Origin: Polytrichum commune
Taxonomy: Eukaryota; Streptophyta; Polytrichopsida; Polytrichales; Polytrichaceae
Direction of reading: 5' to 3'
DNA: 64,000 bases
Assembly: GCA_950295325.1 (NCBI GenBank)
Contig: OX485806.1
Span: 45,379,169-45,443,168 of the forward strand
Shown: positions 306-60,984 of the stretch, piece after piece
Position numbering within the stretch: the first letter of the stretch is position 1
Layout of the letters: each line of letters starts with the position of its first letter
Position numbers and translations under genes: made by a program
The notes under the pieces: generated by a model
The model's database searches: none
Told to the model about the DNA's origin: nothing
The model's input: only the letters and a program-made list of their open reading frames with translations

Positions 306-3300
306 ATGCAATATTTGGGCGACTTGAAGATAGTTATTGAGTCTTTAGCCACTCTGCTTGAACAGGAGGCATCAACAGCTTATCCACGTGATTCACCAGT
401 TCAACCTTCGGTTGTCGCTATTGCGGACACAGATATGGAGGACGATGGAGGAGAGGACCAGGATGAGTCCCACAACGACGATGAGTTGTTTGGAGATGAC
501 GAGGACGAGATTCGAACCAGACAGAAATTAAACTCCGTTGCCACCATTTCCAGCTTGAGATTCCAGCCAATTTCAGTTTCACGCTTTTCGATTCTACTTT
601 GCAAGTTGGTTGCCATGCCTTTTGTGAGGCCGACCCTCCAGAGTGATCTCGATAAGCTTGAACAAGAGTTTGTTCATGGCTATCGTGATGGGGCTGCAGT
701 GTTCTACGTTACATTGACTGATGAACATGGAAGTACTCAGGAGGTTACATCTCTGGTGAAGGAGAATTGGGGATCCATCTGGAATGCGCAGAATTAGGAA
801 TTCAACAGGTATCTCCTATCGGTACCTGAACTTTCACATATGAAGAATCTTATGTTTTTTGTCTGTGATGGTAATCACAGACGCCAAGCATGGCTTAACC
901 ATATTGACGGCTTTCATAAGAATGATCCTTCCTGGCATTTTAGAGTGGACTCCATTCTCCTCAACACGAAGGACAAAATCGGCTTGGTTATGCAAGTGAT
1001 GCACACGATCAACAAGTAAGTGTGATTTTCAGCGTTTTGATTATCTTTGAGGTTGTTCCTGAATTCGAAACATTTTCATGTATGTATTGTTGTGTTTCAG
1101 GCACACCGAGGACTCCCATGTCAGAACGAACACTGTCCACACGCTATTCAGAGTTAGGAAATATGGAAAAATGGATATTGAGAAACTGAAGGACGTGTTG
1201 TCACCAGCTGACTTCATGCGTTGTAAGCGTGACCAAAAGAAAACATGGTACACCTTACCTTTGAATGTTTTCGCCTCCTTCATCTTTCAGGTGAGTGCAC
1301 TTGTTCCTTTTGATTTAAAGTACTGTGCTTCACTCATTTTGATTAAATGTGTAGTTCGTTGAGAGTACTGAAGTTCTTTGTTTAAGGATTCTTCATAACA
1401 TGAATGTGGATTATTCGCAGCACGAACTAACTTGTGGATAATTGGCAGCATGAAATAAGCATGGCTTCTGACGAAGGTGTCCGCCAGCTTGTTGAGCAGT
1501 CTGATGTGGTTGTATCTCCTGCTCAAAAAGCGGCCGCGATGAAGTCCGCAGTGGACAAAGGATGTATTTCATTGCGTCAGAAGATGGGAAAACTGGTCGC
1601 GGTTGCAAATCCAGACCTCACTGATGGTTGGTTTGATGAGGTAAGTTCCATTCCTTAAATCCAGTGTTTTATCAGGTTGATCATTCTGAATTTGATTTCA
1701 AGATACCTGCTTTGTCCATTTTTAATGAGGACGTTTGTAATTGGGTAGATTGAACGGCTTTATGCCAATAATTCAATATCTCCAGAGCTCAACTTGAAAA
1801 AACTTCAGCTAATTGCTACGTCAAGAGCATCCCCGATTTTCAAAATCAAGTGGCTTCAATACATAAACGCCTCTGCCGCAACTCGAGAGGCAAGAAGAGT
1901 TCATGCGAAGCCCGTTACCGAAGAAAAGCTTTCAATTTTCCTAGCAAAGGGATGCTGGTGGGCTGGGGTATGAATATCTTGAAACTTCAGTATTTTCCAA
2001 CACAGTTTGCAATGTTGAAATTGAAGTTAGAGAACTTGGAAAATTAAGGAAATAATACCCACACACTTTGGGTTGTACTATGGGCTCCTTGGAGCTATAA
2101 GGGTTAAGTGTTTTCCAATTTATATAGCATTGCCTTTATGGACACACCATTTCATAGATGGCTGAAATGGTATTCAAAGCTTCTTCCGAACATCACTACC
2201 TTTGCCGCAAGCTTGACCAGTTGACCTCCAATGCTTGCTTTGGATTATGAAAGGCCTAGTTTGTGCCCTATTGAACCTATACACTAAGTGTAACCTCAAC
2301 ACATATGGAAACTAGCAATATGGAAACTAGATAACTAATGTGGATGTATCAAAGTATACCTTAGATAACTAGATATTAATTAACTGAAATTAGATAGAGC
2401 TATCTAGAACTTAAGTTAACTTCCACTCTTGAAATAAGGCATGGGGGGAGCTATATATGAGGAGAGGTTATATTCAGCCTTACATGTGTAGACCTTGATC
2501 TTAAGTCCATTTGAATATGTTGGTGTAAATTTTGTGGTGCATATCATTGGGCATTGAGGTCATGCATTGAGCAAGTTGTGTGGTATTTCATGTGGATTTA
2601 GTTCAACTATGCAGGCACTCTAAGAAGCATTCTAGTCCGAGACCACTATTTTGGAATTCGAGGTTGATAGGAATTAAGGGCAGGTTAGGGGGGGGGGTTA
2701 AATGATTTTGGTATATATTTTGATTTCATGTGGGTTTAGTTCAACTATCCAGGCACTCTAGGGAGCATTCTGGTCCGATACCACTATTTTGGAATTCGAG
2801 GTTGATAGGAATTAAGGGGAGGGTAGGGGGGGTTTAAATGATTTTGGTTTATATTCTGATTTCATGTGGGTTTAGTTCAACTATGAAGGCACTCTAAGGA
2901 CCATTGTGTAATTTGTTTACTTTCAGATTTCCGATAATGCGACAACTATGTTTGAGGACATAGTTCAACAGGATCGCATCCCCATCGACATGTCTGTGCC
3001 TTCCGAGCCTCTAGCTTTGGCTGCATATATTGAGGAATGCAGGATCGCGCTTTGGGACCATGCATTTGTCTCGGTGTTTCGCGGTCACGACTGCTTTAAG
3101 AAAATTGATGATTTCCAGGGATACAAGGGAACGGACCTTGTTGTGAGAAGAGTCCTCTTCAGGTGTTTGCTCTATTTGCCTTTCATGCTTTGATTTCATA
3201 CTTCTATTTCCCTCTTTATAAATTCCAAATGTTTCATGTTCTTATGGCCATCATTATTTTCCAGGTTCTTCAAGTTTGAGCTCCTTCCAAAGAAAACGAT

Positions 3301-5468
3301 TCTCAAAGAGGACTTGCCGCTCTTCTTGAGTACTTGGTTGAACCAGTCCAACGCTGCATGCATGTTCATAGCTGCCCAGCAGAGGACATGGACGACTTCA
3401 CACCTTGCTTCTGGCGCGTGGTATCTCGATTGTACTACACATTACACCCCACCTTTTGAGATGGAATTGAGGAAATCACGCGAGGCTATTGGAGAGTCTG
3501 GAGAGGAGATGCAGGACTTGAAGGGCATCGAGGATGACAACGACAGGGCTAAGGCACTGAAGAGGCGGATTGAAGAGGACCGCAAGAAAGCCCTCAAGGT
3601 GAAGGAGGCAGAAGAAAAAACTCACCTAAAGGAGTTGGAGAGGCAGCAGAAAGCAGCTGCAAAATCGACGAAGAAAGGCAAGAAGAAGGTGTCAACTCCT
3701 GTAGAGGTAGAAATGATAAGTCATGTGCAGCCTAGTCCAACCGTGGACTCTGGTTCCCAGATTCGCTCAGTTTCAGCTAGGGGTACTAAGAGGGACACCT
3801 CATATAAGCTCTTTTCCCAGTTGCCGGTTGTTGATCTCACAGAGGAGGCCAATTGCATGAATGATGAGTTCATTCTTAATTCATCATTGTTTGAGGTCCT
3901 TGGCGGTGAATCGGGCAGTTTATCGCCCCTCTATGATGACCTCAAAGCTCTTATTTCTAAGGTATCTTTATTCTCATTTGCCCATCTGATGTGGTTATGT
4001 TTTGCAACTGGTAGTGTTTAGTTCTCCATTTCTGTTTGCTTTTGAAATTGTTACGTTTCTTACATGCATTGAATTGCTCATTTAGCAGCATTTATCTGAT
4101 AAAAGACGTGCGCACAAAGGATCTTCTGGAAACCACCCTTGTGTGGATTTGATCCTTGTGGACCAACCAGAAGGTCTCCCAGTTCCAGGTATTTCGAACC
4201 CTATTTCATCTGTGCCCTTATGGAACCAGGATTCTAAGAAATGGCTGGAGCCCATTTTTGATTTTGCCGACCAACACCTCCAGGATGGTGGTGCACTCAT
4301 CATCATTCATCCTTTTCGATTGAGCACAAAGTCAAACATACTCGGATACTGCAAGTCCTACGGATTTGAAATCCGCAAGGAGTGGTGGGGGATGAACCGT
4401 CTGCATTTGACATCGGCAGTACATCCGACATCCACTGTAAGTTCAAAACTATGTCTTGTGTTCTGATTCGGCTTTGACATTAAGAATCTTCACACATGAT
4501 TTGATTATCCATGGACATTGTCATTCTTGTCTAATATTGTTGTTCGAATGCCAGACCATGAGATTTGGCATCTGTTTGGCGGTGAGGAGTCTTTCAGGGG
4601 TTCCCAATTCTACATTTTCTTTTCAGCCAATTCCTGCTCTTGACCACCACGGAGTAGACGTTGCCAGAGATGACATCCTCATGAACCTGGTCACGAAAGA
4701 TGATCAGCTCATGAATGGCAATTTGCCTTGGCGAGGCCCTCGGGAGAAGTCCGCCTTGCTCATGCAGATGCTTATAGAAGCGTCTACCTTTCCTGGGGAT
4801 CTCGTGGTTGACTGCACTGCAGCCACTGGTTCGTTTTCTCAACCTAAACCCTACTCAGTCTCAGTTTATTTTCCTCAAGGTTTCAACTTAATTTTATTTG
4901 TACATTCACTTAACACCTAAATCATCTTCACTTCTCTAGGGTCGTCCATACACGCTTGTCGCAATATCAACCGACATATTGCCGCGTTTGAGCCGGATGA
5001 GGAAATCTTCAAGGCCTTACTGGCACCCCTCATCCGGGCTTCACCTGCTCTTTCACCTCCTCACCTGGATCCACTCACCATCGTGGATGACATTGATGGC
5101 GAGGAAATTGAAGTTGAGCGGATCGTGAAGAAATCCCGATTCAGTAAGTAAGTCTAAACGTTCAAGTATGCATTTCTATTGAGATCATGTTGATTTATGT
5201 TACTTCTTTTTTTTGTCACTTCTTATTTCGGCTTTCGTTTTGCAGGTGCGAGATCCTGATTTCTCCACAACATCGACCTTTTTTTTGTAGGCCGAAATTT
5301 TTCCCAAGCCCTCCTAAACCCTTTGAGTTGCCTACATATGCCGAAGAAATCGCTTTTTGTTTTGCAACTGAGGGCATACGGAATCCCACTTCGCGCTCCC
5401 GTTCTCTGTCTCGTAGAGGCTTGAGTTTTCTAGATCTAGAAGCTGTTCAGTGTGATGAGGAGGAGTGA
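306..5468 (+). CDS. ParB-like / beta-class DNA methyltransferase-like protein, copy 1 (ten exons, one in-frame stop)
   Basis: Proposed exons: 306-1015, 1101-1290, 1449-1640, 1749-1967, 2927-3162, 3265-3961, 4089-4436, 4555-4828, 4940-5147, 5246-5468. They total 3,297 nt, exactly 1,099 codons, with GT/AG at every junction. Residues about 40-75 are acidic. Residues about 105-200 look like a ParB/Srx-type domain, with FVCDGNHRRQAW at 861-893 matching the family's DGxHR signature. Residues about 582-660 form a charged Lys/Glu coiled coil ending in KKGKKK, a possible nuclear signal. Motif IV is VDQPEG (DQPE at 4161-4172, residue about 773). Motif I is VVDCTAATG joined to SSIHACRN across the 4828/4940 junction (residue about 950), preceded by GPREKSALLMQMLI, which is typical of N4/N6 DNA methylases. 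The order IV then I is the beta class. The normal catalytic D/S-P-P-Y is absent, so methylation activity is doubtful. A TAG at 795-797 interrupts exon 1. The fold assignment is inference; the exon model is well supported by the paralogues. Confidence 0.7.
795..797 (+). other. In-frame TAG inside the ParB-like exon
   Basis: The codon lies between two stretches that read as one continuous domain (NAQN before, EFNRYL after). No intron of plausible plant length explains it; the nearest GT/AG pair would leave only 45 nt. It may be a nonsense mutation, a sequencing error, or the end of a shorter upstream protein with re-initiation at a downstream Met such as the one before KNLMFFVCDG. Confidence 0.85.
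2586..2925. repeat. Tandem repeat of about 137 bp in intron 4 of gene copy 1
   Basis: Units begin at 2586, 2724 and 2860, each starting TTTCATGTGG. The third is cut off by the splice acceptor at 2926. The first two end in G-rich runs (GGGGGGGGGG and GGGGGGG). The array lies inside the 959-nt intron 1968-2926, the longest in copy 1. The rest of that intron (1968-2585) shows nothing recognisable. Confidence 0.85.
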
Positions 5469-5985: not shown

Positions 5986-6530
5986 CAAATCAAACATCAA
6001 ACCCCAAGAAATTCGGGGCCATATCCAAAGTGGCCACTCCCGCATGACATATGAACCACTTGGCATGCCGAGACTCAACCTGAAACCAATGATTTGAGGT
6101 CAAATTTATAGATTCAGGTTGAATGTAGCTAAGCATGAATCCTAAACATTGCATGCCCTCATTCAACCTGAAGCTATCAACTTGACCTCAAATCAAACAA
6201 CAAACCCCTAGGCCTTTGTCCAAAGTGGCCATATATGCCGAGACCGAACATGAAATCTAAGCCGTTGGGCATGTCGAGACCCAATTTGAAACCAATGATT
6301 TGAGGTCAAATTTATAAATTCAGGTTAAATGTAGCTAAGCATGAAACCCAAACATGGCATGCCTACATTCAACCGGAAAGCATAAACTTGACCTCAAATC
6401 AGACATAAAACCCCTAGGCCTTTTCCAAAGTGGCCATGCCGAGACCGAACATGAAATCTAAGAGACCCAAATTGAAACCAATGATTCGACTTCAAATTTA
6501 TGAAGTCGGGTTGAATGTAGCTACACCCTT
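5986..6530. repeat. Tandem repeat, period about 204 bp, 2.7 copies
   Basis: Units start at about 5986, 6189 and 6394 with CAAATCAAACA or a variant. They share the landmarks CCAAAGTGGCCA, GAAACCAATGATT and TGTAGCTAAGCATGAA. The third unit is shorter and merges into the next array. Confidence 0.85.
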
Positions 6531-6558
6531 TAAACACAATCAGAATGTAGGGGCTCAA

Positions 6559-6915
6559 GCCATGAGGCCTCGGATCCGAGGCCTTGTCCAAGTGGGATTT
6601 AGTCCACCTCAAATGACAACCTGTAAGCATCCGAGACCCATTCCCAACCTACAAACCTTATACCCAATCTGAAATGATACCGCAGCCATGAGGCCTCGGA
6701 TCAGAGGCCTTGTCCAAGTGGGACTTAGTCCACCTCAAATGACAACCTGTAAGCATCGGAGACCCATTCCCAACCTACAAACCTTATACCCAATCTGAAA
6801 TGATACCGCAGCCATGAGGCCTCGGATCCGAGGCCTTCTCCAACTGGGATTTAGTCCACCTCAAATGACAACCTGTAACCATCCGAGACCCATTCCCACT
6901 CTACAAACCTTATAA
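6559..6915. repeat. Tandem repeat, period 126 bp, three copies, each with a palindrome
   Basis: Units start at 6559, 6685 and 6811 with GCCATGAGGCCTCGGAT. Each carries the 20-bp palindrome AGGCCTCGGATCCGAGGCCT, perfect in units 1 and 3 and with one mismatch in unit 2. Copies are nearly identical, so the amplification is recent. Confidence 0.9.
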
Positions 6916-6925
6916 GAGAATCTGC

Positions 6926-7086
6926 AAGCAAATATAGTATAGGTTCCTCAACCACGGTTATAGGTTATTTTTGTCAAAAAATATTTCAATATTTAGCTCT
7001 ACACCGCGGTCATAGGGCATGTTTCACAACACAAAATTTCAATATTCTACAAAACTCACCGCTCGCAAAATAGCTTTTCCCGATAG
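6926..7086. repeat. Repeat present in inverted orientation at 56232-56400
   Basis: The block contains CACCGCTCGCAAAATAGC and two CGGTTATAGG / CGGTCATAGG words. The same series occurs reverse-complemented at 56232-56400. One copy lies downstream of gene copy 1 and the other downstream of gene copy 3. Confidence 0.75.
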
Positions 7087-7420
7087 AGGACATTTGAGTG
7101 CCAAAGGACTTAAATTAGTTTTTTGATGTGTTTTGGAGTGAATTTGCATCTAACCAGATCATGTAGGTGTTGACTTGACTGTTTGTTTCATTTCTACACT
7201 AAATTGGGGATATTTGAGTGCCAAAGGGCTTAAATTAGCTCTTTGAAGTGTTTTGGAGTGAATTTGCATCTAATCGGATCATTTGAATGCTGACTTGAAT
7301 GTTTGCTTCATTTCTATACTAGATTGAGGACATTTGACTATCAAAGGACTTAGATTAGTTCTTTGATGTGTTTTGGAGTGATTTTGCATTTAATTAGATC
7401 ATTTAGGTGTTGACTTAAGG
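7086..7420. repeat. Tandem repeat, period 120 bp, 2.8 copies
   Basis: Repeats of (C/T)ATTTGA..(G/A)CCAAAGG lie at 7091, 7211 and 7331, followed each time by TGTTTTGGAGTGA and TGTTGACTT-like segments. The array lies immediately upstream of the Copia element, where a 5' LTR would be expected. Confidence 0.9.
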
Positions 7421-7659
7421 AATTATAACATTCTTTGAGTGTTTTGAGGTCTTTTGGGTTCCAAGAAGCTTAGTTGTGCTTCTTGAAGGTTTTGAGTTGC
7501 TTTGCACCAAGTTGAGGAGTGAAAATGCTGACTTGAGTGTGGAATGACCTTGAATGAATAGTTTGAATCAATTCCACTTAGTTTGGTTATAATTCAAGTC
7601 GTATTGAGGGATTTTTTGGTGTACATTGAGTGAGTGGGAGCTTGCATTTGAGTCGCAAA
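7421..7659 (+). other. Leader between the 120-bp array and Copia gag
   Basis: The sequence has no similarity to the 3' LTR at 11696-11955 and no clear tRNA primer-binding site. The 5' LTR therefore seems to have been lost or replaced. Confidence 0.4.
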
Positions 7660-16614: not shown

Positions 16615-19283
16615 TGTGGTGCTTTTGGGCACCCCCCTCCGAGGAAGCCTAAAAGTACCGCACAATCCCTTCGGTGAGGGTGGCCTGCCTTAGCAGGTGC
16701 CCAAGCCGAACCCGGTTGTTACGATATTTAATGGGTGTGTGGTGTTAGTGGAGGGATTTGGTAATCGCATCGTATCCTTCCAATAGGTTGTGCCTATATA
16801 TTAAGTGCCTAGGATAATTATCAAGTTTTCTAACCTAATGTCTACTCTATCCTAGTCTACGCGCAGACGTACCAGCCTTGGGATCAAGGCAACCTAATCC
16901 TACTGGATGAAATAACCTTACCTTTTACCTTGGGCCACCTCTAATTCTTTACTTCTTTTATATTAAATTATCTAAACGGGGGGACCTTAATTAAGTCCCA
17001 CCCTCTCAACCTTCATTATTAGTTTATGGTTAATTAAACAAAGCCTATATTACTAAGTTCATAAATTATGGCATCACCACCTACCTGTTTGGTGCACGCC
17101 CTAACCCGAACCCTTCAAGGCCCTGTGCGGGTCTCTTGAAGGTTGATTGATACTTACACCCTCCGATCTTTGCCGTCGGAGGGGTAGTCTCAATCCTCCA
17201 AGTTAAGTTTCCGGTTGGTTTTTTGCCCACGGGGGTCGTATAAATTGTGTTGGTTATTAATTAGTTTAACACGGTTTGACCACAAAAATTCAACTTGATG
17301 GGACTGGGAAATAAGGCAACCTGTGTGTTCAACTTGTTGCATAATCTTCAAGGGTTGGGGCCATCACCTCCAACCCTTGGGGCCATCACCTCCAACCCTT
17401 GGGGCCAACAACATGATGGTGGTTTCGTGGGTCATTACTCCCACCTTACCACCTACAAACATACAGAGTGGTCATGCCGGTGATTAATCCGGCTTCACCA
17501 CACACGAACGAGCTATGAATAAAAAGCTACTACCACAACATTTAACCGAGAGGCTCCGCACACATGGGAGTTGGACTTCCCCTCGGCGGCTAGGTGGGTG
17601 ATGCCCCCCTAGCCTTACATGGATAGTTGGATTGGGGTGAAAATATACCTTTGCCGCGCTCCCTCCATTCCTAAATTGAAGGGTGTAGGGTTAAAATGCT
17701 TACCGATTGACTCCCATCTTGGCTTGGCGATGGTTGGTGCGGAACCCCTACTCCATCGCTCGGCCGCCCACAACACCAACTCGTACCCGCCACCTTTGGA
17801 TGGACAAACCTCTTCTTGTAAGGCAGCAGACACTCCTTCGCTTAAACGGCCATAACTTTTGTCCAAAAGCTTCAATTGGAACACTCATTAGTAATCTGGA
17901 AAGCTAACAACAAGAACTATCACTCATCGAATTATCAAAGCAACTGCATGTACCTTCTTAAAGATATAAGCCTACAAAGTCAGCTCTTAGAATTCTAGAG
18001 GCAGCTGGGATACCTTCATTCAAACATCCATAACTTTTGCTTATTAACTTAGATTCCAGCAAGCTTAGACTTTCTAGAAACCTTTAAATCAGATCTACAA
18101 CTGCCCCAAATATCAAAACAACAGCATGATTCCTCTTGCAGGTATGAGCTTACAAAGTCAGCTCTTATATTTTAGGAGGCAGCTGGGATACCTTTATTCA
18201 AACATCCATAACTTTCACTCCTTAAGCCTGATTGTGACAAAATTATACTTTCTAGAAAGCTAACAACAAGAACTATAACATATTCAAATATCAAAGTAAT
18301 TGAATTATTTATCTTTTAGTTATGCGCTTGCAAAGTCAGCGCTTGTAAATTAAGAGGCAGCTGAGACACCTTCATTCAAACACTCATAACGGTTGCTCCC
18401 TTACTCTGATTCTAACAATCTTAGGCTTTTTGGAAAGCTAACATAAAAAGCTACATTCTCTCAAAATCTGAAGGCTAAATTTTAATTTTTGTGTGCACAA
18501 CACATGATTGAAAGTGGCACAGCAACTTAGGGGTGTGTTCAAAAACACACTACCTTCTCTCAAGAGTTCTAACTATTAGAATTCTAACTTATGCCTATCG
18601 TGAATGAGTGGGAATGGTTTTCTCCTTCTAACGACAATTCTAGAGGGTTTCACCGTGCAAAAAAAAGAAAAAATTAGAGAGAAATTGAAAGGGGAAAAGG
18701 GGGTTTTTATCATCCTTCAAAATGAAGGGTTGGACCCCTTCTCCCTTCCGTTCACCGAGGGGTCCCGTTCCTTGAACGGTGCCAACCAAGCCCTCGGAGG
18801 TGAATGTGGGTGAGGGGTGCCACCTCGCACCCCACTTGCTCAAGCCCTTAGAAAGGCTTTTTCATTTCCATTTGGAATTCATTTTTGGTTGGCATGGGTG
18901 GCAACATGGCCCCTTTGCTTTAGTTGGCAAAATTCCTTACGCTCGTAGTTGTCATTTTTTTTTTCTTGGCCGCTTTCGGAATTACCCTTGTTTTGCCGCC
19001 ACTTGACTTTTGCTTGCTTGATTTGGTTGTTCCTAACTTAACCTACCTACTAACTAGCCCACTACTTCACGCTTCCGATTCGGGTAAAGGGCATTTCCCT
19101 TTTAACCTTTCGGTTTCTAATTTCTATTTGCCCAAGAATTTAACCCAAGGGTATAGCTCCTTTAGCCAACCTACCTTAATCTAAACGGTTTGTGCTAAAT
19201 TTCTCTATTATTCATCTAAGGGTTTTGCTAAAACACCTCAATTGTGAGCCAAATTGCCTTTGGGGGCAATTTTGACACTTATA
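16615..19283 (+). mobile_element. LTR-like element, family III, older copy
   Basis: The 5' end TGTGGTGCTTTTGGGC and the following 150 bp match the starts of the elements at 54567 (+) and 42236 (-). The flanks carry GCATT on both sides (16610-16614 and 19284-19288). The right end reads ACTTATA, not the expected CA, so that border is less certain. A repeated 'CATAACTTTTGC..' block with AAAGCTAACA words occupies 17850-18450. No protein is encoded. Confidence 0.6.
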
Positions 19284-32580: not shown

Positions 32581-35386
32581 GAAATTAAACTAGGATTTTG
32601 ATGAATATAACAATTCATAAGGATAGAAATTTAGTATAAAGCAAGTTTGGACAAAGACAATCAATTTTGAAACCACCTCAATTATGCCTTGAGAAATGAT
32701 AAATACCAAATATGGTTAGTAAGGTATATTGGTAATCGACATTCATACGAAATCAGAATATGTAACCATCATAAAGAGGAATTCATTTTTTTAGGATTAT
32801 GAACATAAAAAAGGCTTAACACTTATAACCGTTTGTGAATTTTTTTTATCTAAGAACGATTAAAATGAGAGAAGATGTACATAGAATAAAATACAAATCA
32901 TATGAAAAATAGATTTTAGAAGGAAGGAAAAATATTATATAAAGATAGATAGTTTATGAAACACAACTCATTTCATAGCAACAAGTTATTTTAAGATTGA
33001 ATGTAAAAAATACTCAAGTTTACCTTGTATCTTCTCTCTTTGAGACACCTTTATGAATATACTTGCAACTTTCTTCTAGTCAAATTGGAACTTCTTTCTC
33101 TTTCAAATACTTTGTGAGTTGTTGGATGTCATGATCCTTAAAAAATTACCAATTGAGAGGAAAGAAACTTCTTTTGAGCAAACACTCAAAAAAATCGTGT
33201 AAGGAAACGATCAAACATTTAAGATTTCAAAGAGTAATGGAACTTTGATACTGATAAAAAAAGCACTATTTTGGAGTCATCAATGACATGATCAAATGAA
33301 CTTTGATAAACCAATTGACGTTGAAAATCTCATTAATAATTTAATATATTGAGTCTATACTTCTTTCTATAAAGAACACTCATAATTTAAATCCTCAACC
33401 AAAAGTATTAAAATTGATATCATAAATAAAAATATTAAAAGAAAAAAATTGTGTTAATATGTATGAATGAGAGATGTTATATGATTAAGAATAATTAGAT
33501 TTGTCACATGTTTTTTAATACAACTATAAAGATCATAAGTATGTCTCAAGTGATAACATTTAAGCTAAAAGAAAAAACTCAAGAACATGAAATTCTTATA
33601 TTAATCCTCATTACTATTATAACTTATCAAATAAGTGATTTACGTATACTTATATTAATATCAAATGATTATTGATGCAAGTAAATATATGAATGATTGA
33701 GATTGAAGTTTATGTACTATGGAACTTATATAATGAACTATGAGTTTTAATTTTCTTCGAGAAATTTAATGTAAGCTCTTGAAAAGTTTTTTTCCATCAA
33801 GAATTAATGATAATGATTCATATGATGTAATTTTGAATGATATGGATGGAACTTTTAATTATTGATACACCTCTTAAATTCAATTTATTTTAGTTATTCT
33901 CACAATCAATGAGCCTTATATTGCAAGTAAAATTAAATAAAAATGAAATTGTTTTAACTCCCAGGAACCATATTCAAATCATAAGGAGGATGAAAGGTTA
34001 ATAGTTCATAAAATGGTTATAAACCAAGCATATTAATGAGGCATGGTATTCTCAAAGAAATTATGAATTTACATGATGTTACATTATTAGTCCATTTAAC
34101 TTATGGTAAAGGAACAACCCATGGTGTTCATCAGAGCGAGGAGATTGAAGTTTAGTGTAGTGGTGAAGAAGAGATGTGAGTTTTTTTTCTAAAGTCCAAA
34201 GTTGGTAGATTTACTTTTTTTAATGATTTTTTAAAATTATTGGATCAGCTCTATTTATGTTCTAATATTTTTTAAGCATAGAACTAAAAATCATAAGCTT
34301 AGGAAGATTTTAAGGATTTATGGATTTAAATATGCTCTTTAAAATATATTCAAATTTTGAGAATCTGTTGTTTCTGTGTTGTCTAAGATTTCTAATTTAA
34401 TGTACCCTGTCAGTACATTTTTTATTTTCTCTTTTGTGGTACCTTTCATAATTAAACATCTTTATAATTGTTTACATAAATTTTAAATTTGAATGAATTC
34501 ATCTAAATTTTGTTGCTCATTTTTTTATTATATATTTTTCTTCATCTCCTGCATATAATATTTTTTCATGTGTTTTCATATTCCATAACTAAAAAATTGT
34601 TGAAATCCTCTATTTTCTTTGTATTATATCATTCATTATTATGTTTTTCTTGTTTTTTAAGATGGATACTATTGATTCTTTTAATTAATATTCCTTCAAT
34701 TCTAAGCAATTGGATGTTGCAATGTATTATCCTGTCAATGAGTTTTTTTCTCAGCTGAAAACAAATGCAATTTTGACATACCATATAATTGATTCAAAAT
34801 CACTCATTAAGAAGTTTTGTTTTGAACGTTTTTTCAAATCGAGGTTTTTTATTTCCTTAGGTCGTTTGTTGTCTATGCTTTTAATCTAGCCTATTTTAAT
34901 ATCTAATGTCTTAAAATTAGATTAAGGTTTTGTTTACCGATATAGAGTTGGAAGTGCGGTTTTTATGTTTCATTGACAAACAATCATATGGAGATCCAAG
35001 ATGTCACTTTTGAGCTGTTTAATTCTTGAAATATTGATTGGAAGAAATCTAATTAACAATTTTAATGACTTTTGAAGTAGGATGAATATATGAAATGCTT
35101 CAACTGTAAGATGTTCTAGGTTTGAGAAAGAAATCATCGCTTGTAGACCTGAAAATCAGTTATTAATAAGGTTCACTCTTATAAGTCTGATTGGCATAAT
35201 TCTATGGACTCGAGCTTGCTGACTCTATCACTTGATATTTTTATGCTCTTCACCGCCATGTATAACCTGAAAAAATAATTTCTATCATTTTTAGTTGTGT
35301 CTTGTGATTTTGATTTGATTTTGATTTTTTGTAATATTTATTCAGCTTCTTACTCCTTCCATGTTTGTCATGTTTATATGTTTCAG
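32581..35386. other. AT-rich sequence, nothing firmly recognised
   Basis: More than 70 percent A+T by eye. It may include diverged first exons of gene copy 2 (for example around 34650-35020), but the similarity to copy 1 is too weak to claim. Confidence 0.4.
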
Positions 35387-38032
35387 TCATGTTGAACATT
35401 CACATGTCAAGACCAATTTCGTTCATCAACTATATTAAGTACAAAATATTTGAATTTGTTTAATCGCGAGTTTCAAAATCTATTGACATCTGATCAGTAC
35501 AAAAAATGTGTCACTTAATATATTGGAACGTGATATTCACTCACCAAGGATATTTTCTGGGATTATTTGTACAATATAAGTTTCTTAATATTCATATTTA
35601 TTTTATTTAACAAATTTTGACATGTTTAAATTTATATTTTATTGTTGTGGTTATTTAATGTTTTTTCTTATTTTTAAATGTGAGATTGTAAAGGTCAGAG
35701 ATTCGGCCAAAAAATAATATTTTAAATTCACTCCTAAGCAAGTGTGGTCCTCTAAAGGTGTATTTGAGGTCATAAATGCAGCAATGGACACTAAACGTGC
35801 AAGTTGGTCATTCTAATTTTGCAAAGCATTTTCCCATTGCAAATTCTTTTTTAGATTTTAAATTATTTTCTCAAGTCTTATTCCATATGTTCAAATCGTT
35901 ATGAGAAACAAAACCTTAAAAAAACCTTGTGGTTTTTAAGTTGTGAGACATGTTATTTATAGATATCTTCATATATATATATATATATATATATTTTAAT
36001 GATTTCTTTCTTCGTCTTTCAATTTTTTAATTTTAATTTTTTTTCACAAATACTTTAAGTGTTTTTTGCTTCTTGTAATATTTTAGACAAGCTACCACAT
36101 TTTTTGGATAGTTTCAAAGATATTCAGCCTCATAATTTTATGTTCACACTTGAAATATGTTAACAATGGAATGAGGTCCATAGGTATGAATTGTCCGTCT
36201 AATAAAACTTCACATTCTAAATTAGAATTGTGTCTCCGTGTTGAACCCACGTTTGTTCCCTCCGACTTAGACCAAAACCTACCATATACAAAGCCTACGA
36301 GAAGAAAGAGGTTAAATTTTATTCAAGTCTCTTGACACTCTAAGGAAAATGACATCATGAATGATGAACCTTTTGCCAAAAACGTAGGATCCTTCAGCAT
36401 GCTACTTCATCTTATACCAATAATTATGTCTTTCCTTCTATGTTGGAGTTTTTTCTAGTATTTAAGAATCAAGACTAAAACTCCTAAACATACGCCATAT
36501 AATTTTAATAAGAACTCATTTGAGCTCTTTTTGAATGACTCATTTTTTAATAATTTGAACGTCAAATAACACACCAAGACTTGGCCTCAATTTTTCATGA
36601 GATCAATATATTTCTTACAAAAATATATTTCTTGCTCATTCTTTCAAGCCATATATTGAATTGTTTTTCAACCTTTAGTAGCTCAACAATCCATTCACCT
36701 AACATGGTTTTTTATTTTTGTTGTTTAAGTTGGTATAAAATGTATTTTTTACTTTCAAGGAGTTCAAAAAGCAGCACCAGCTATTGATTTGATTATTGCA
36801 GATATCCCACAGGAAATGCCTAGACTTTCAATATCCAATTTTTTAATATTCTTTGGGATGAAAAATCCGATAAATTTCTTATTTTATTTTCATTTTGCAT
36901 GCAATATTTTCATGATAATGATGTATTATTGGCATTTCATCTTAATGATGCAAAATGGACAAAAGAGTTATCTTCTTATTTTTTCAATCATAAATTTTTA
37001 TCATTTTTATAAGTACGTTTGATTTTTTATTTTATTTTTTAATTGATTTTTTTAAATTTTAAAATCAAATTCACAACACTCTTGTTTTTTCATTCTTTTT
37101 ATAACACTTCTGGATGGAAACGTTTAGCTTTGCATTTTCAAATGAATATTGACAAAGATCTTTCAAACAATGGTATATATTTGGATGATGATTTTTTGTA
37201 TAAATTCACAGATGCTACTTCTCAACTTACGAGAGATGATGGTGTTACACCTAGAAGGGATCCACAAGAAAAACATCCATTACTTTTTCAAGTTTTGATC
37301 GATGTTTTTTCAAAACCCGCGGGTATTGTTGTAGACCACACTACATCGACAAATGTAAATCCATTTACATTTTCTTTGATATTTATTTCTTCATATGCTC
37401 GCAATATCAACTACTATGTGTCATTAATTGATCTCTTCATAATTGTGTTCTATTATGTTTTTAGCAGGACCCTTCATACATTTGCCACATTTTGAAGCGT
37501 CGCCTCTTGGCGTTAGAAGGCGATAAAGATGTTTTTTAGTCCATCTTGAAGCCTGTGATTATGCAATCTCCTTTTCCTGCCGGCAAAGACTTTAATTGTA
37601 ATGATTCATATGATTTTTAAATTGTTAATCGCAAAGCTATCAATGTATTTTTTGAGTTTGTTTGTTTGTTTTCTTCTTTAAATGCTTTATATAATTGGTT
37701 TTCTTTTCTTATAGCATATTGCACATATAATTACCTTAACTCATATGAAGTAAACAATAAATATTGATATATTTGTATGGTCATAATCTAGCAATATGAT
37801 ATCACAATGTTGCCAACGTTGGCCACCAATTTTTCAAGATCCAAGAAATTTATCAAGTCCATCTCCCCCTCGAGGCCTCCCGATCTATGATGAGAATATG
37901 GCTTATTTTCTTGTTGCTCAATCTTTCTCTTCAATATATAGAAACACTAAACATTATGATCGGTCGGTTTTAGATTTCATAGATTTAGAAGCCAATTTAT
38001 GTTCAATATCCATCACAAAAAAATTTCAATGA
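35387..38032 (+). pseudogene. ParB / methyltransferase-like gene, copy 2, decayed
   Basis: Pieces align with copy 1 in order. An exon after TTTCAG at 35387 reads HVEHSHVKTNFVHQLY then a stop, with the same intron phase as copy 1 exon 2. NDIMNDE near 36345 resembles the segment before copy 1 motif IV. IDLIIADIPQ (motif IV DIPQ at 36801-36812) follows. A frameshifted HDNDVLLAFH lies near 36912, then an RRDPQEKHPLLFQVLIDVF segment with VVDHTTST (motif I) near 37250-37350. Next comes ICHILKRRLLALEGDKDVF, interrupted by TAG at 37537-37539, and a final exon from about 37794 with PSPPRGLPIYDENMAYFL. Stops, a frameshift and extreme AT drift mark it as dead. No ParB-like exon could be recognised. Confidence 0.75.
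35971..35995. repeat. (AT)n microsatellite
   Basis: About 12 AT dinucleotides within an intron or gap of gene copy 2. Confidence 0.9.
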
Positions 38033-39394: not shown

Positions 39395-42236
39395 TGTGAA
39401 CCCTTTGAGTGGTCCACCACTCTGCGGGATCACTTTTAGTTAGAATGTTAGCATTAAAAGTTAGAATTGATAGGGAATTTAGGGAAAATTAGTTCATTTA
39501 GCATTTAGCCTAGAAGAAGGAAGGTCAAAATGAAACTAAGTAGTGCTAGAAGATAGCAAAGTAGAAAAAAATATGCTAGCTAGTAAAAACAACTAGCTAA
39601 GCAAATATTAGTAGATGCTAGCTATTAAGCAAATGTTAGTAAATGCTAGCTAAGCAAGTGTTAGTTTATTAGTTAGTGTGAGGCACACAAGACTATTGGA
39701 GGTGTTTTACGTAAGAAGATAAAATCGGCGTGAAGAATTTTGAAGACAAAAAAGAAAGAGAGCAAGGGGGATACTTGCCCACTTGCCCCCTTGCCAACTC
39801 GATGGCGGAAAAATTAGAAAGATTTCTAAAGGTTTTTTGTCGGAGCCACCTCGGCGAGAGGGTGGCAACCTCAACCGGGAAAACCCCCGAGCCAAAATTT
39901 CGGGAAAGGGTTTGAAAAATGGATCCGGTGGAGGAGGGGTCCAACCCTTTTGTGAGAGGGTTTAAAAACCCCTCCTTCCACCTTGTAGCTCTCTCTCTTT
40001 CTCTAGTTTTTGGGCGAAGCCCTGCTTCAATGTAGTTAGGAAAAAATCCTTTAGCATGTATTCTCAATGGTCTAAAAGAAAGGCTTGAGAACCTCCTCTA
40101 CTCTCTCTCTCCTAGTTAGGTTGTGTGTTTATTAACACACCAACAAAATTATTCCTTCTTTTGTAGAGGTAGGTTGGATGGTAGAGTTTTGAGTAGAGGC
40201 ATTATAGACCTCATCTGCCAATGCCCTGAAGGCTTAGTTCAAAAGCTAGAACAAGATACTTATCATTTTTCTCTTAGAGAGATTTCATATAGCTATCCAT
40301 AGCCGTTTCCCATTCGTGATTTGGTTGAGATGACAATTAGTTATGCATTTTCAAAGATGGAGTAGAAAAAACTGGGTGGTCTTGTGGGTAGCGGCTGCTG
40401 GATCAGACCTGCGAGCCCAATAGGAATTTTAATTCCAAGAAATTATATTTTTTCCAAGTAGAAATTTTGTGTAGCTTTCCAAAATGGCTTAGAACATTTG
40501 ATTTGAGCATGATTTGAATTAGATATGAATTGTGCAAGATGGGACACATAGTTTGAGAACTTTTGGTTGACTGCTGCATTACAGAGGACCTGCTGGGTTC
40601 ACTTCGGCTTACCTTTCTAATCACATATTTTTATCAAATACATCTTTTTAATATCTCTCCAGGGTCATATAGAACGTTTGATTTGACTAAGATTTGAATT
40701 AGATATGAATTGTTGAAGGCGAGATACATAGTTTAAGCCTTCTTGATTGACTGCTGTGTTACAAGGAGTCCGCTGAATTTCTATTAGCTTAACCTGCTGA
40801 TGTCATAATTTTTTCTAGTTAGAGCTTGTTCATAGCTTTCCAATGGTATAAGGAAAGCCTAGATCCAAGTAGTAAGGAATGTGCTATGAATTCTTGAAGT
40901 TAGAAGGTAGATAGGTGGGTTGGAAAGGTCGGTTGAATCGACCTCACACTTCCAACCCTCATAACTTTTGCATTTCTTATCCGATTAGAGTGATTTTTAG
41001 ATCATTGGAAAGATAATTTGGTGCACTAAGTATAAATATTATGCTTAGGATTAAATTACAGGGCAGAATAACACTTTATATTTTAATTGTTAACTAAGGT
41101 ACGCTTACTACCAAACTAGTTACAAAGAAGGAGGCAAGGTCGACGCTCGGAAAGTGGAGCAAGGAAGGAGGTAGCGGCTCGGCCTACATCAAGCCCAAAT
41201 CAACCGAGGAAAATTGAGGTAAATTAACTAACCTTAAGCCTTCCATTTAGGATTGGAGGGAGCACGGCTAAGGTACGCATCTCTAAACCCACTCACCTAT
41301 CTCGTAAGGTCAAGTGGCTTGACCACTTGACCGCCAAGGGAGTACCCAATTCCATTGTTTTCGGGGCCCTTGGTATGTTTTGTGGTAGTAGCTTCATTTA
41401 TTAGCAAGTTTCGTGTGTGGTAAGTCGGATTAATCACCGACACGACCACTCTAAATGTTGTTGGTGGAAAGGTGGGGTTAATGACCCGCGAATCCACTAT
41501 TATGTTGTTGGCCCCATAGATTGGGAGTAATGGCCCCAATTTATGAAGATTGCGCAACAGGTTGAACCTACAGGTCGCCCGTCACCATGGTCCCATTGAG
41601 TTGCATTTCGTGGTCTATCCAGTGTAAACACATTTAACAATCAAAACATACAAAATAAATCGTAAACCCTTGTTGGCAAGAGACCCGAGGTAAGGGGTGA
41701 TGCCTAATATGTTAATGTAGTAAGTTAGGACGTGCAAACAAAAGTAAGTAATTAAGAAGGAATTTGTGTGAAGGGTGGGACTTAGGCCAAGTTCCCCCGC
41801 TTAGAAAACTAAATAGAACTAAATAAAGAAATAGGAAGAATTGAATGGTCCATCAAATTGTCGTTATTCCGTTCGTTGAGTTAGGGTGGTATGAGTCACA
41901 CCCGGTTGGGTGTATCAGAACCATCCCAATTCACAAATTAGGATTACCTTGGTTTCAAGGCTGGTGCGTCTGCGCGTAGAATAGGTTGTAGGTTAAGGTT
42001 AGAACTAGATATGAAATTGGTTAGTGGAGTTTAAAGCCACACTAGTAAAAAACTAAGGCCTAACCTCCGGAGGTACTACGACGCATATTTAATCTCCCTT
42101 AAAAATCTAACTACTCACGTTATACACCTATCATCCGGGTTCGGCTTGGGCGCCTGCAAATGCAGGCCACCTTCACCGAAGGGCTTGTGTGATACTTTTA
42201 GGCTCCCTCGAAAGGGGGTGGCCCAAAAGTACCACA
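39395..42236 (-). mobile_element. LTR-like element, family III, inserted in the DUF7869-like gene (2,842 bp)
   Basis: On the minus strand it starts TGTGGTACTTTTGGGCC and ends AAAGGGTTCACA. The 5-bp duplication CTCAT is exact (39390-39394 and 42237-42241). Removing the element and one CTCAT joins two reading frames in phase (FYM then RDDGVP). It is highly similar to 54567-56083 in inverted orientation, including an 86-codon noncoding frame shared by both. Short GCTAGC / TTAGTAAATGCTAGC-like words repeat at 39590-39670. Confidence 0.9.
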
Positions 42237-54566: not shown

Positions 54567-56083
54567 TGTGGTACTTTTGGGCCACCCCCTTTCGAGGGAG
54601 CCTAAAAGTATCACACAAGCCCTTCGGTAAAGGTAGCCTGCACTTGCAGGTGCCCAAGCCAAACCCGGATGATAGGTGTATAACGTGAGTAGTTAGATTT
54701 TTAAGGGAGATTAAATATGCGTCGTAGTACCTCCGGAGGTTGGGCCTTAGTTTTTTTACTAGTGTGGCTCTAAACTCCACTTACCAATTTCATATCTAGT
54801 TCTAACCTTAACCTACAACCTATTCTACACGCAGACGCACCAGCCTTGAAACCAAGGCAATCCTAGTTTGTGAATTATAATGGTTATAATACACACCAAC
54901 CGGGTGTGACTCATACCACCCTAGCTCAATGAACGGAATAACGACAATTTGATGGACCATTCAATTCTTCATATTTCTTTACTTAGTTCTATTTAGTTTT
55001 CTAAGCGGGAGAACTTGGCCTAAGTCCCACCCTTCACACAAATTTTTTCTTAATTACTTACTTTCGTTTGCACCTCCTACTTCACTACATTCACATATTA
55101 GGCATCATCCCTTACCTGATTGGTGCACCTCTTACCTCGGAACCTTCTAAGGCCTCGTGCAGGTCCTTTGAAGGTTGAGTGACATCTCAAACCCATTCGA
55201 ACATCAATGGTTCGAAGGGTGGTATCACTCTACCGAGTTAAGTTTCTGATTCGGGTCTCTTGCCAACAAGGGTTCACGATTTATTTTGTATGTTTTGATT
55301 GTTAAATGTATTTACACTGGATAGACCACGAAATACAACTCAATGGGACCAGGGTGACGGACGATCTGTAGGTTCAACCTGTTGCGCAATCTTTATAAAT
55401 TGGGGCCATTACTCCCAATCTATGGGGCCAACAACATAATAGTGGATTCGCGGGTCATTAATCCCACCTTTCCACCAACAACATTAAGAGTGATTATGTC
55501 GGTGATTAATCCGACTTACCACAAACGAAACTTGCTAATAAATGAAGCTACTACCACAAAACATACCAAGGGCCCCGAAAACAATGGAGTTGGGTATTCC
55601 CTTGGCGGTCAAGTGGTCAAGCCACTTGACCTTACGAGATAGGTGAGTGGGTTTAGAGATGCGTACCTTAGCCGCGCTCCCTCCAACCCTAAATGGAAGG
55701 CTAGCGTTAGTAAATTTACCTCAATTCTCCTCGGTTGATTTGGACTCGATGGAGGCCGAGCCACTACCTCCTTCCTTGCTCCACTTCCCGAGCGTCGACC
55801 TTGCCTCCTTCTTTGTAACTAGTTTGGTAGTTTAAAATATAAAGTATTTATTTTGCACTGTAATTTAATTATAAGCATAATATTTATACTTAGTACACCT
55901 AATTATCTTTCCAATGATCTAAAAATCACTTTAATCGGATAAGAATTGCAAAAGTTATGAGGGTTGGAAGTGTGAGGTCGATTCAACTGACCCTTCCAAT
56001 CCACCTATCTACCTTCTGACTTAAAAAATTCATAGCACATTCTTTATTACTTGGATCTAGGCTTTTCTTATGCCACGTCTTAC
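54567..56083 (+). mobile_element. LTR-like element, family III, copy 3, truncated at the 3' side
   Basis: It begins TGTGGTACTTTTGGGCC and aligns closely, in inverse orientation, with 42236 back to about 40845. After CTTGGATCTAGGCTTTTCTTAT the similarity ends. The left flank is CATCC; no right duplication was found. About one third of the full element (39395-40840) is missing. Confidence 0.8.
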
Positions 56084-56231: not shown

Positions 56232-56400
56232 GGTGTTGTGTCACACCGGGAAAAGCTATTTTGCGAGCGGTGAGCGGTAAGTTTTATAGAATATTGAATT
56301 TTTGTTAGGGTTTACATACCCTATGACCGCTAACTTTTGAAATATTTATATATTTTATTGATAAAAAGAACCTATATCCGTGGTGGAGGGAATTTTTTTG
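56232..56400. repeat. Inverted copy of the repeat at 6926-7086
   Basis: It carries GCTATTTTGCGAGCGGTGAG and CCTATGACCGC, the reverse complements of landmarks at 6926-7086. It lies about 200 bp past the stop codon of gene copy 3. Confidence 0.75.
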
Positions 56401-56606: not shown

Positions 56607-59600
56607 TCAGCTCCCATCCGAGGAGTCTTCACGATCAGACTCTAGAGCTTCAATATCACATAACTCAATACATCTACATGGATAAGATTTAGGAATAATA
56701 GTACGATAAAATCCACTACCTAGTTCAATTGCAGTGTCATTTGCGTAGGAAGGGAGATCCCAAGTCTTTGGAGGACTTGGATAAAACGTAGGGTCACAAA
56801 AGCAAGGGCGGTGACTAGGATAGCTCATTGGTCCATATCTGCAAATTCCAAAAGCACCATGGTTAGGGTTCCATATTAGATACAACGACGCTCAAAAGTA
56901 AAACAAATGTATGAGAAAATGTTCAACAAACTCACTTACCGAATCGAGACTTCTTCACAATTCTCGGGACCACAACTACATCACCCTCCGGGTCCTCACT
57001 ACTTGCCGTTGCTCCATAATTTACCTCAGGAGCAACACTCGAGCGAATCAAGGGTTTAAGTACGGCATGGAAAATGGCCTCATCAGCCTCTAATGCCACA
57101 ATGTGACGCTCGACATTGCGGGACGCATGGATGGAAGATCCTGCAATAACAAGAATGACAATAAAATTAGTGTGATTTCTCTGGAAATAACAATAAATAG
57201 TTAAAGATGTGAGCTGGCAGATTGAATTAACATACCCATAGCAGCAGTGCAGTCTAAAACAACATTTCCAGGGGAGGTAGAACTCTGAATTAGCATCTGC
57301 ATTAAAAGAGTAGACTTCTCTCTTGGACCTCGCCACGGCGTGGGTCCATTCATGAGCTGATCCTCACGAGAGACGAGGTTCTGTAGAATATCGTCTCTTG
57401 ATACATCTACCCCGTGTCGGTCAAGAGCAGGAACAGGTTGAAATGAGAACTTGGAAGCAGGCTTGCCAGGCATGGTCCTCACCACCAATGTAATCCCGAA
57501 ACGCATAGTCTGCCATGGTCCAAAATTAATGAACTTGTCAACTGAGAACAATGAACCAAAAATATGAGAAAATCAATATGTAGCATTCGTGTCAAACAAT
57601 GTTTTAAAATTGCACAAAAAACAAAGAGTAAATTAAATTAGAGAATTAACTTACAGTGACACCTTGATTAATCGGGGACGTCAGATGAAGGCGGTTCATA
57701 CCCCACCACTCTTTCCGAACTTGAAAACCAAAACACTCACAATATCCAAGAATCATGGCTTTTGTAGTCATTCGAAAAGGGTGAAATAAAATGATGGCCC
57801 CGTCATCATGCAAGTGGTTATCTGCAAAATCAAAGATTGGCTGTAGCCACTCGTCAGTTTCTTGATTCCAGGCAGGAATCGACGTTGGTGGGTTGGAGAT
57901 CCCTGGAACGGGCAAGCCCTCTGGGATATCAACAAGTATCAAGTCCAGACAAGGCTGGACACCGGTAGTCCCCTTGTAGAATCGAACTTTGCTTTTGGAA
58001 TGTTGTTCAATAAACAAGCACACCCAGAAATTAGTACATCTCCACCAAAATATGGGCTTTCAAATGGACAAACATATCTAACCATATAACAAATTAACCT
58101 TATAACACATAAACTAACCTTATATGAGATTAGCCTTACAACACACAAACTAACCTTAGATCAGATTACCCTTATAACACACAAATCTAACCTTATATCA
58201 GATTAGCAATATATCAAGCCTATCTAACCTTATATCAGATGACCCTTATAACACACAAATCTAACCTTATATCATATTAGCCATATATCAAGCCTATCTA
58301 ACCTTACAGTTCAAACTAACTTTATATGAGATTAACCATAAAAGAAACCTATCTAACCTTATATCATATTAACCTATTACCTCACAGTTCAGATTAGCCT
58401 TATAGCAAGCATATCTAACCTTATATCAAATAACCCTTATATGAAGCCTATCTAACCTCATACCAGATTACCTTGATAATGTTCACTCAAATCTAACCTA
58501 AGCTTATATCAGATTTCACTAACTAAGCTTATATCATATTCAACTAACTAAGCTTATATCAGATTATAACACAGAGTTATAACCTCATTTCAGATTACAC
58601 CTATAACACACAATTCTAACCTCAATTCATATTACACTTATAACACACATTTCTAACCTCAAATCAGATTGACCTTATAACACACAAATCTAAAAGCATA
58701 TCAGATTACCCTTATAAACCAAATATGTAAAATCACATCAGATTACACTTATAACACACATATCTAACCTCATATTAGATTGACCTTATAACACACATAT
58801 GTAACCTCACATCAGATTACACTTATAACAAACATATCCAACCTCACATCAGATTACACTTATAAAAAACATATCCAACCTCACAACAGATTACACATAA
58901 AACACACATTTCTAACCTTATTTCAGAATGACCTTATAACACACATCTATAGAAATGTAGGTGGCAGAGTTTGAATACCAAAGAATCTGTCTCGGTACCG
59001 AGACACTCAAATTCGGCCCTAACTAAGCTTATATCAGAGTGCCCTAACTAAGCTTATATCATATGTCACTAACTAAGCTTATATCAGATAATCCTAATAA
59101 CCAACATTGCAAATTAACCGTATATCATATTTACACATAAAACATACATTTCTAACCTTATATCAGATGACTTTATAACACACATATCTAGAAATGTAGG
59201 TTTTAGAAAATACCAGAAAATCTAATACCAGAAAATTTGTCTCGGGACCGAGACACCTAAACTCGGCACTAACTAAGCTTATATCATATTTAAGTAAGTA
59301 TGCTTATATCAAATTTAACTAATTAAGCTTATATCATATTTCACTAATGAAGCTTATACCAGACTACCCTAACTAAGCTAATATCAGATGTCACTAAGTA
59401 AGCTTATATCAAATTACCTTAATACCCAACATTGCAAACTAACCTGATATCAGATTACACTTATAACACACATATCTAACCTCACATCAGATTGACCTTA
59501 TAACACACATATGTAACCTCACATCAGATTACACTTATAACAAGCATATCCAACCTCACATCTGATTACACATAAAACACACATTTCTAACCTTATATCA

Positions 59601-60912: not shown

Positions 60913-60984
60913 CTGCGGGAAAGACACAACTCATCATTAAATACCTTGCAATTGATATAGCTGCCATATTAAAAACCAAAACAC

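Follow-up and report, generated by a model that had tools for sequence, protein, structure and literature searches.

The 64,000-nt stretch of the Polytrichum commune genome analyzed here (contig OX485806.1, positions 45,379,169 to 45,443,168; hereafter the window) begins with an intron-bearing gene at 306-5468 of the plus strand, which a preliminary description read as a domesticated host gene joining a ParB-like domain to a beta-class DNA methyltransferase fold with an altered catalytic motif. This locus raises the question of whether a plant has taken over a prokaryotic DNA-modifying enzyme, and of what such a protein could do once its catalytic motif has changed. Our results demonstrate that the gene is transposon-borne and methylase-derived, that its catalytic aromatic residue has been lost, and that the protein is constrained. 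The location in a plant nuclear genome is supported by the presence of WRKY and chlorophyll-binding gene families in the genome.

A methylase-like domain with an altered catalytic motif

The gene at 306-5468 (window copy 1, family A) was modeled with ten exons (306-1015, 1101-1290, 1449-1640, 1749-1967, 2927-3162, 3265-3961, 4089-4436, 4627-4828, 4940-5147, and 5246-5468) and aligned with six sister copies. The ten-exon structure proposed earlier is correct, as all nine introns begin with GT and end with AG and the frame is continuous across the joins except for one TAG codon. The model contains 1,075 codons with both stops counted, rather than encoding the 1,098-residue product first described. 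The exons recur in the six sister copies, two of which are cut short by insertions and one of which has a partial first exon, and three splice dinucleotides differ among these copies (two in E10 and one in E13). The order of the motifs also stands as described: DGNHRR, a long charged middle region, which contains a lysine-rich stretch, a motif IV-like LILVDQPEGLP, GPREKSALLMQMLI, and then a motif I-like DCTAATGSS.

The methylase-like domain is encoded by exons 7-9 (4089-5147, plus strand), where motif IV (DQPE) is followed by motif X and then by motif I. Its proposed relationship to beta-class DNA methyltransferases is borne out by a match to the Pfam family N6_N4_Mtase (PF01555; E = 2.3e-8; 34.7 bits against a curated cut-off of 26.7) and by a profile-profile comparison to methyltransferases (probability 98.1%, E = 7.2e-14, 203 columns), the score of which is 95.95, compared with 21.1 or less in 30 column-shuffled controls. 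In addition, a search of the PDB returned DpnA at 1e-6, and a match to a phage adenine methyltransferase covers 79% of the query at 2e-5. The profile-profile and phage alignments together contain the motif order IV - X - I over the full domain. These matches establish the C-terminal half as a homologue of the beta-class N6/N4 DNA methyltransferases. A search for relatives in viral contigs and prokaryote genomes found none, save one match of 45 query residues.

The catalytic motif IV of N6/N4 methyltransferases is (D/N/S)-P-P-(Y/F/W), with an aromatic fourth residue, and their S-adenosylmethionine motif I is F-x-G-x-G. Because three phage relatives have DIPY or DLPY in motif IV, the second residue is free to vary; it is the change of the fourth residue that counts. 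The three copies in the window were said to have an altered motif IV, and they do: DQPE in copy 1, DIPE in copy 2, and DIPQ in copy 3. When the conservation of the altered motif was checked within the same genome, the change proved to be wider than the DxPE pattern. Among 22 distinct loci, which represent six related families and window copy 3, the fourth residue is acidic (D or E) in 20, Q in one, and Y in one, and the aromatic residue is lost in 21 of 22. The motif reads DQPE in all nine A loci, DIPE in both B loci, in window copy 2, and in G, DLPE in C (L019), and QFPD in both F loci, where the catalytic D is gone as well; four of five E loci have DIPD and the fifth has DIPY. Outside this count are six E loci (L044-L049), the pieces of which begin past the motif, the B locus L018 and the D locus L027, for which the motif is not visible in the pieces, and the A motif of L005/L011, which was lost to an F insertion. 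Motif I is also changed, to TAATG in A and B, TAAMG in window copy 2, STTTG in C, and TCSTG in F, and its first glycine is gone in A, B, C, and F.

The N-terminal domain (615-1290, plus strand), which contains the motif FFVCDGNHRRQAW, is ParB-like by motif only. It is kept in families A, B, D, E, and F, and 32 of 135 columns are invariant over six sequences from A, B, E, and F, with the conservation centering on MF.(I/V)(C/W)DGNH...AW. The ParB assignment itself did not hold, as only the DGNHR-type motif favors it. Pfam searches with the N-termini of three members gave no ParB match up to E = 10, the N-terminal profile gave no match in the PDB, and the N-terminus gave none in phages. Profile-profile comparison with the N-termini of ParB-methylase fusions gave a probability of 0.24% over 12 columns, and its score of 13.8 is no higher than those of shuffled controls (mean 11.6, maximum 15.8). 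When the genome was searched with PF02195 at E <= 10, a permissive search in which a miss is not proof, four matches were returned, all on the small contigs C10, C12, and C23, and none of eight phage records gave a PF02195 match. A single-sequence structure model (mean predicted local distance difference test score 44.5) was too poor for use. ParB identity was thus not accepted on the profile, PDB, and phage tests, which do not disprove a remote fold, and the motif makes a ParB/Srx-type fold possible.

The genes on the small contigs C10, C12, and C23 (L036, L037, and L055-L058) are of bacterial or phage type. C10 and C12 carry ParB-methylase fusions with an unaltered DPPY, and two ParB-like proteins are encoded on C23 next to an open reading frame (ORF) that appears recombinase-like by eye. 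These contigs are probably contaminants or symbionts.

The gene as cargo of a DNA transposon

The methylase-like gene is the cargo of a terminal-inverted-repeat (TIR) DNA transposon of about 17 kb with a 10-bp target duplication. When the 408-Mb genome, in which seven contigs of 42 to 78 Mb total 406 Mb, was searched at the protein level, 142 exon matches were obtained and grouped into 49 loci; together with window copy 2 this makes at least 50 loci, a lower bound because the search scores the best candidates only. The sister copies end abruptly at ...CTCGCAAAATAGCTTTTCCC (window position 7081; one letter is different in E14), and beyond this shared end the DNA is unrelated in each of five copies (the window copy, E10, E13, E14, and E15). 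This sharp end of homology marks the 3' terminus of the element that carries copy 1 (element 1), with the terminal inverted repeat CCGCTCGCAAAATAGCTTTTCCC at 7059-7081 on the plus strand. The terminal sequence has 96 matches in the genome at two or fewer mismatches, compared with none for the reversed control, and it is found in the expected orientation within 8 kb downstream of 32 of the 50 methylase-like loci.

A complete element of 16,921 bp is present at C1:2496520-2513440, where the matching inverted terminus lies 16.9 kb upstream and an identical 10-bp sequence, TGACCGAAAC, is present outside each end as a target duplication. In one element, the inverted repeat extends over 26 nt at 96%. 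Element 2 of the window lies on the minus strand from 56248 to the window end at 64000 and continues for another 9.9 kb, to C4:45453102, which gives it a total length of 17,687 bp. It has both termini, with the terminal inverted repeat on the methylase-gene side at 56248-56270 (minus strand), and a 10-bp target duplication, GTGTCACACC, one copy of which is at 56238-56247 and the other outside the window. Its methylase-like gene, window copy 2 (56625-60911, minus strand), matches only the exons at 3265-5468 of copy 1, and no match to the first five exons, the DGNHRR part included, was found in it. Target duplications of 10 bp were identified for three elements, namely two complete ones of the same kind and a related one of family F.

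The transposon also contains a partner gene, which consists of two long ORFs located upstream on the opposite strand and has at least 77 matches in the genome. Of the 50 methylase-like loci, 28 have a partner gene from among the matches listed within 25 kb, whereas 1,000 rotations gave 0.67 such loci on average and 5 at most. In 26 of these 28 cases, the partner lies upstream and is divergently oriented. The B family, with eight loci, contributes a single one to the 28. No Pfam match to the Mutator-like element (MULE) transposase domain (PF10551) was obtained in the partner gene. Read by eye, the partner protein shows a C-x-C...C-x-H pattern and an FMADSAQANW...CLFHW stretch, which we take to resemble DDE enzymes, and its position together with these motifs makes it the presumed transposase. 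Long "open frames" (2,390-2,527 aa) that surround certain partner genes were rejected as fusions, as the one that was fetched (L025) contains 5,000 N.

The transposon has relatives in the same genome. Family E comprises three full-length and further partial matches, and 44 short matches of 34-37% identity are probably family F, of which one (L040) was fetched in addition to a nested copy. Both domains, the DGNH domain at the N-terminus and the methylase-like one, are present in families E and F; for the relative G, only methylase-like exons and one end were seen. The nested F element (11.4 kb) is inserted in a family A element (L011 with L066, about C4:10156176-10167606). Its termini resemble those of A, it contains its own divergent partner gene, which is 53% identical to that of A, and it is flanked on both sides by the 10 bp TCTGATGTGG, which are present once at this place in the uninterrupted window copy. 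The gene pair is thus common to at least A, C (window element 2 included), and F. A family G element (DIPE motif, terminus GGGAAACTTAGTAGTGTGAGCG) is likewise inserted in an A copy, L012, from 6026.

Window copy 1 itself is a dead copy, with an in-frame TAG and no 5' element end found. The homology of its region to the complete C1 element starts within the partner gene, at a distance of 6.9 kb upstream from exon 1, and the 5' terminus of element 1 was not found in 15 kb upstream. The TAG (795-797 in exon 1, plus strand), which is absent from the preliminary description, shows that the copy is broken, because the six sister copies carry a sense codon at the same place (E14 is displayed there in a shifted frame); the sense codons also mean that the TAG is neither a feature of the family nor evidence for a hidden intron. 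Each of the sister copies has stops, frameshifts, or insertions of its own, and no fully open gene copy was found among the copies read.

Selection and the possible role of the protein

Ratios of nonsynonymous to synonymous substitution rates (dN/dS) were calculated for three regions with our own Nei-Gojobori script, and the A-versus-B, -C, and -D pairs, which are synonymously saturated, were left out. The unsaturated pairs between subfamilies show dN/dS values of 0.23-0.24 in the N-terminal region (two pairs), 0.07-0.20 in the middle region (five pairs; the pair at 0.07 has a dS of 2.97), and 0.14-0.17 in the methylase-like part (three pairs). Apart from the pair at 0.07, the values lie between 0.12 and 0.24. 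For window copy 2 and L019, which both have a terminal repeat, the values are 0.20 and 0.14. These ratios show that purifying selection acts on the protein between subfamilies, the methylase-like part included.

By analogy with VANC, we favor, with a confidence somewhat short of even, the reading that the methylase-like gene is the second gene of a two-gene TIR transposon and encodes a probably non-methylating DNA-binding factor that protects or mobilizes its own elements. The protein would no longer methylate DNA bases in the usual way and would instead bind the DNA of its own element, perhaps at the tandem-repeat-rich introns and flanks. Once bound, it may counter host silencing there or help to assemble the transposition complex, as VANC does for VANDAL elements; a protein that binds its own element without methylating it could shield the element from silencing or aid the transposase. 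The strongest pointer to this mechanism is the tandem repeats. They are located in intron 4 of copy 1 (about 137 bp; 2552-2908, plus strand), between the copy 1 gene and the element end (about 206 and 126 bp; 6043-6935), and within element 2 as arrays of 37-bp, 25-bp, and longer repeats (58073-62743). Tandem sequence makes up 16% of the A element, 22% of element 2, 37% and 57% of two 10-kb B pieces, and 16% of the D piece, compared with 4% and 1% of two other stretches of the window. A wider proposal, which we put forward more tentatively, is that the elements may represent an unclassified and diversified superfamily of two-gene plant DNA transposons with a transposase not known to Pfam. In this superfamily, a prokaryotic-type N6/N4 methyltransferase would have turned into a pseudo-enzyme with a new, conserved D-x-P-E/D signature. 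Such a protein would read or occupy DNA instead of methylating it and would act on the tandem repeats of its own element, either against silencing or in transposition.

Several observations weigh against the favored reading. One family E copy (L038, 3992-4807) has the only aromatic motif IV (DIPY), its four sisters having DIPD, and both glycines of motif I are kept in G (QCGVG) and in E (SVGTG; FVGTG in L039). In the pieces from families C, E, and F, tandem repeats are scarce (4%, 2%, and 1%, respectively). A, B, and element 2 share no frequent word of 9 or 10 letters, and the single 8-letter word that their tandem repeats have in common is just as frequent elsewhere in the window. The VANC domains DUF1985 and DUF287 were not found in the regions scanned, which begin after about the first 100 residues. 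No terminal repeat is found nearby at 18 of the 50 loci, including all eight B loci and the D locus, and 22 of the 50 lack a listed partner nearby; of the nine B and D loci, only one, a B locus, has a listed partner. The partner protein obtained one unrelated Pfam match at E = 0.24 and no other up to E = 10, and its hhalign comparison to MULE transposases of the same genome was not above shuffled controls and no better with the F protein; the label "transposase" consequently rests on position and motifs read by eye. A MULE origin of the partner was not accepted on this profile comparison, which does not disprove a remote fold. Within subfamilies, dN/dS ranges from 0.25 to 1.13. Taken together with the purifying selection between subfamilies, these looser values suggest that active elements kept the protein functional and that many copies have decayed since.

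The divergent arrangement of 26 of the 28 pairs, the pairing kept in family F with a 53% identical partner, the purifying selection, and the lysine-rich stretch would also suit a protein that is simply an accessory to transposition, binding subterminal DNA or helping the transposase, with the methylase-like fold as a DNA-binding scaffold and no role in silencing. We consider this possible but rather doubtful. Element 2 has long partner ORFs and clean termini, yet it carries only the second half of the methylase-like gene, so the full methylase-like protein is not needed in cis, and an accessory role leaves the large tandem arrays without explanation. The protein is unlikely to be a DNA methyltransferase that is active but has changed its chemistry or specificity, for instance one that places N4-methylcytosine or N6-methyladenine on its own element. 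The fold homology and motif order, the variable second residue of motif IV in the three phage relatives with DIPY or DLPY, and the two motif I glycines of E and G are in line with such activity, and DNA-modifying genes are known in transposons (PMC5890265 and PMC12730594). However, 20 of the 22 loci have an acidic residue (D or E) at the aromatic position, and A, B, C, and F have lost the first glycine of motif I, family F being without the catalytic D as well.

The chance capture of a host or contaminant methylase gene, which would now be drifting within a transposon, is very improbable. MULEs are described as acquiring host gene fragments (PMC6446971), and bacterial-type ParB-methylase genes are present on small contigs of the same assembly. 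Those genes have DPPY, however, and the gene-partner pair is common to families A, C (which includes window element 2), and F, with a protein that is constrained between subfamilies. We give least credence, close to none, to the reading of the preliminary description, a domesticated host gene, here duplicated many times. Its many introns, the purifying selection between subfamilies, and the B and D ends that were not located would agree with it, but the precise termini, target duplications, nested insertion, linkage to a mobile partner, and decaying copies do not. A domesticated single-copy host gene is ruled out by the copy number, the terminal inverted repeats, and the target duplications, to which the divergent partner gene is added, and for A, C, and F the domestication reading is largely refuted. 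A separate single-copy host orthologue could exist elsewhere.

Other features of the window and comparison with known systems

The third methylase-like copy in the window (34737-38002, plus strand; DIPQ) is degenerate and decayed. A 120-bp tandem array (7082-7493) starts at the exact base after the 3' end of element 1, and a 178-bp direct repeat of three units (17895-18472) lies outside the elements. A long inverted repeat at 40844-42236 and 54567-56075 resembles another element with long terminal repeats; its arms of about 1.4-1.5 kb, in several pieces, are 91-97% complementary and 12.3 kb apart, and it ends 172 bp from element 2. An Rfam search of the window gave no match.

Transposons with DNA-modification genes form a small but informative class that points to silencing steps worth attacking. 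A methylase body that is kept by selection without its catalytic aromatic residue in 21 of 22 loci raises the question of whether a transposon can profit from a methylase that does not methylate. As the partner is unmatched by Pfam models, the elements may add a transposase group to the known list. The locus is also a warning for annotation, because a plant gene that looks like a multi-exon "ParB-methyltransferase" can belong to a transposon. Among the papers listed by a literature search, none describes a plant DNA transposon that carries a relative of N6/N4-type methylases, which is weak evidence of absence because subscription papers were mostly outside its scope.

The protein shares the motif order IV, X, I and about 200 alignable residues with beta-class N6/N4 DNA methyltransferases (PF01555; DpnA-like; PDB 5hfj and 5hek), but it has D-x-P-E/D instead of D-x-P-Y, a weakened motif I, a long N-terminal extension, introns, and a eukaryotic transposon as its carrier. 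It is also similar to the prokaryotic ParB-methylase fusions (phage WO, a Desulfofustis phage, and small contig C12) in the succession of N-terminal domain, middle region, and methylase domain and in a short G..R motif at a comparable place. It differs from them in an N-terminus without a ParB profile match, a much longer middle region, and the changed catalytic motif.

Among transposons, VANDAL elements of Arabidopsis offer a parallel to the role that we favor. The sequences targeted by VANC are tandem repeats in introns and upstream regions that are variable and differ between related elements (PMC5735166), and the elements described here likewise combine an extra gene with variable tandem repeats in introns and flanks. 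In contrast to VANC, the protein is methylase-derived, with no DUF1985 or DUF287 found, and the partner is not recognizable as a MULE transposase. MULEs have additional ORFs and target duplications of 8-11 bp (PMC6446971), and the 10-bp duplications and terminal inverted repeats found here agree with this, whereas no match to PF10551 was obtained. TET/JBP dioxygenase genes occur in several DNA transposon lineages of fungi (PMC12730594), which resemble the present elements as DNA transposons with a relative of a DNA-modifying enzyme; the fungal enzyme is a dioxygenase, while here a plant element carries a methylase relative with a changed catalytic motif. Retrotransposons with C5 DNMTs or Dam-like methylases are described in dinoflagellates, a charophyte, and DIRS elements, and purifying selection together with conserved key residues is reported for the charophyte copies (PMC5890265). 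These elements share with ours a transposon-borne DNA methyltransferase relative and, in the charophyte, purifying selection, but they are retrotransposons with C5 or Dam-type enzymes, and the charophyte copies are reported to keep the key residues.

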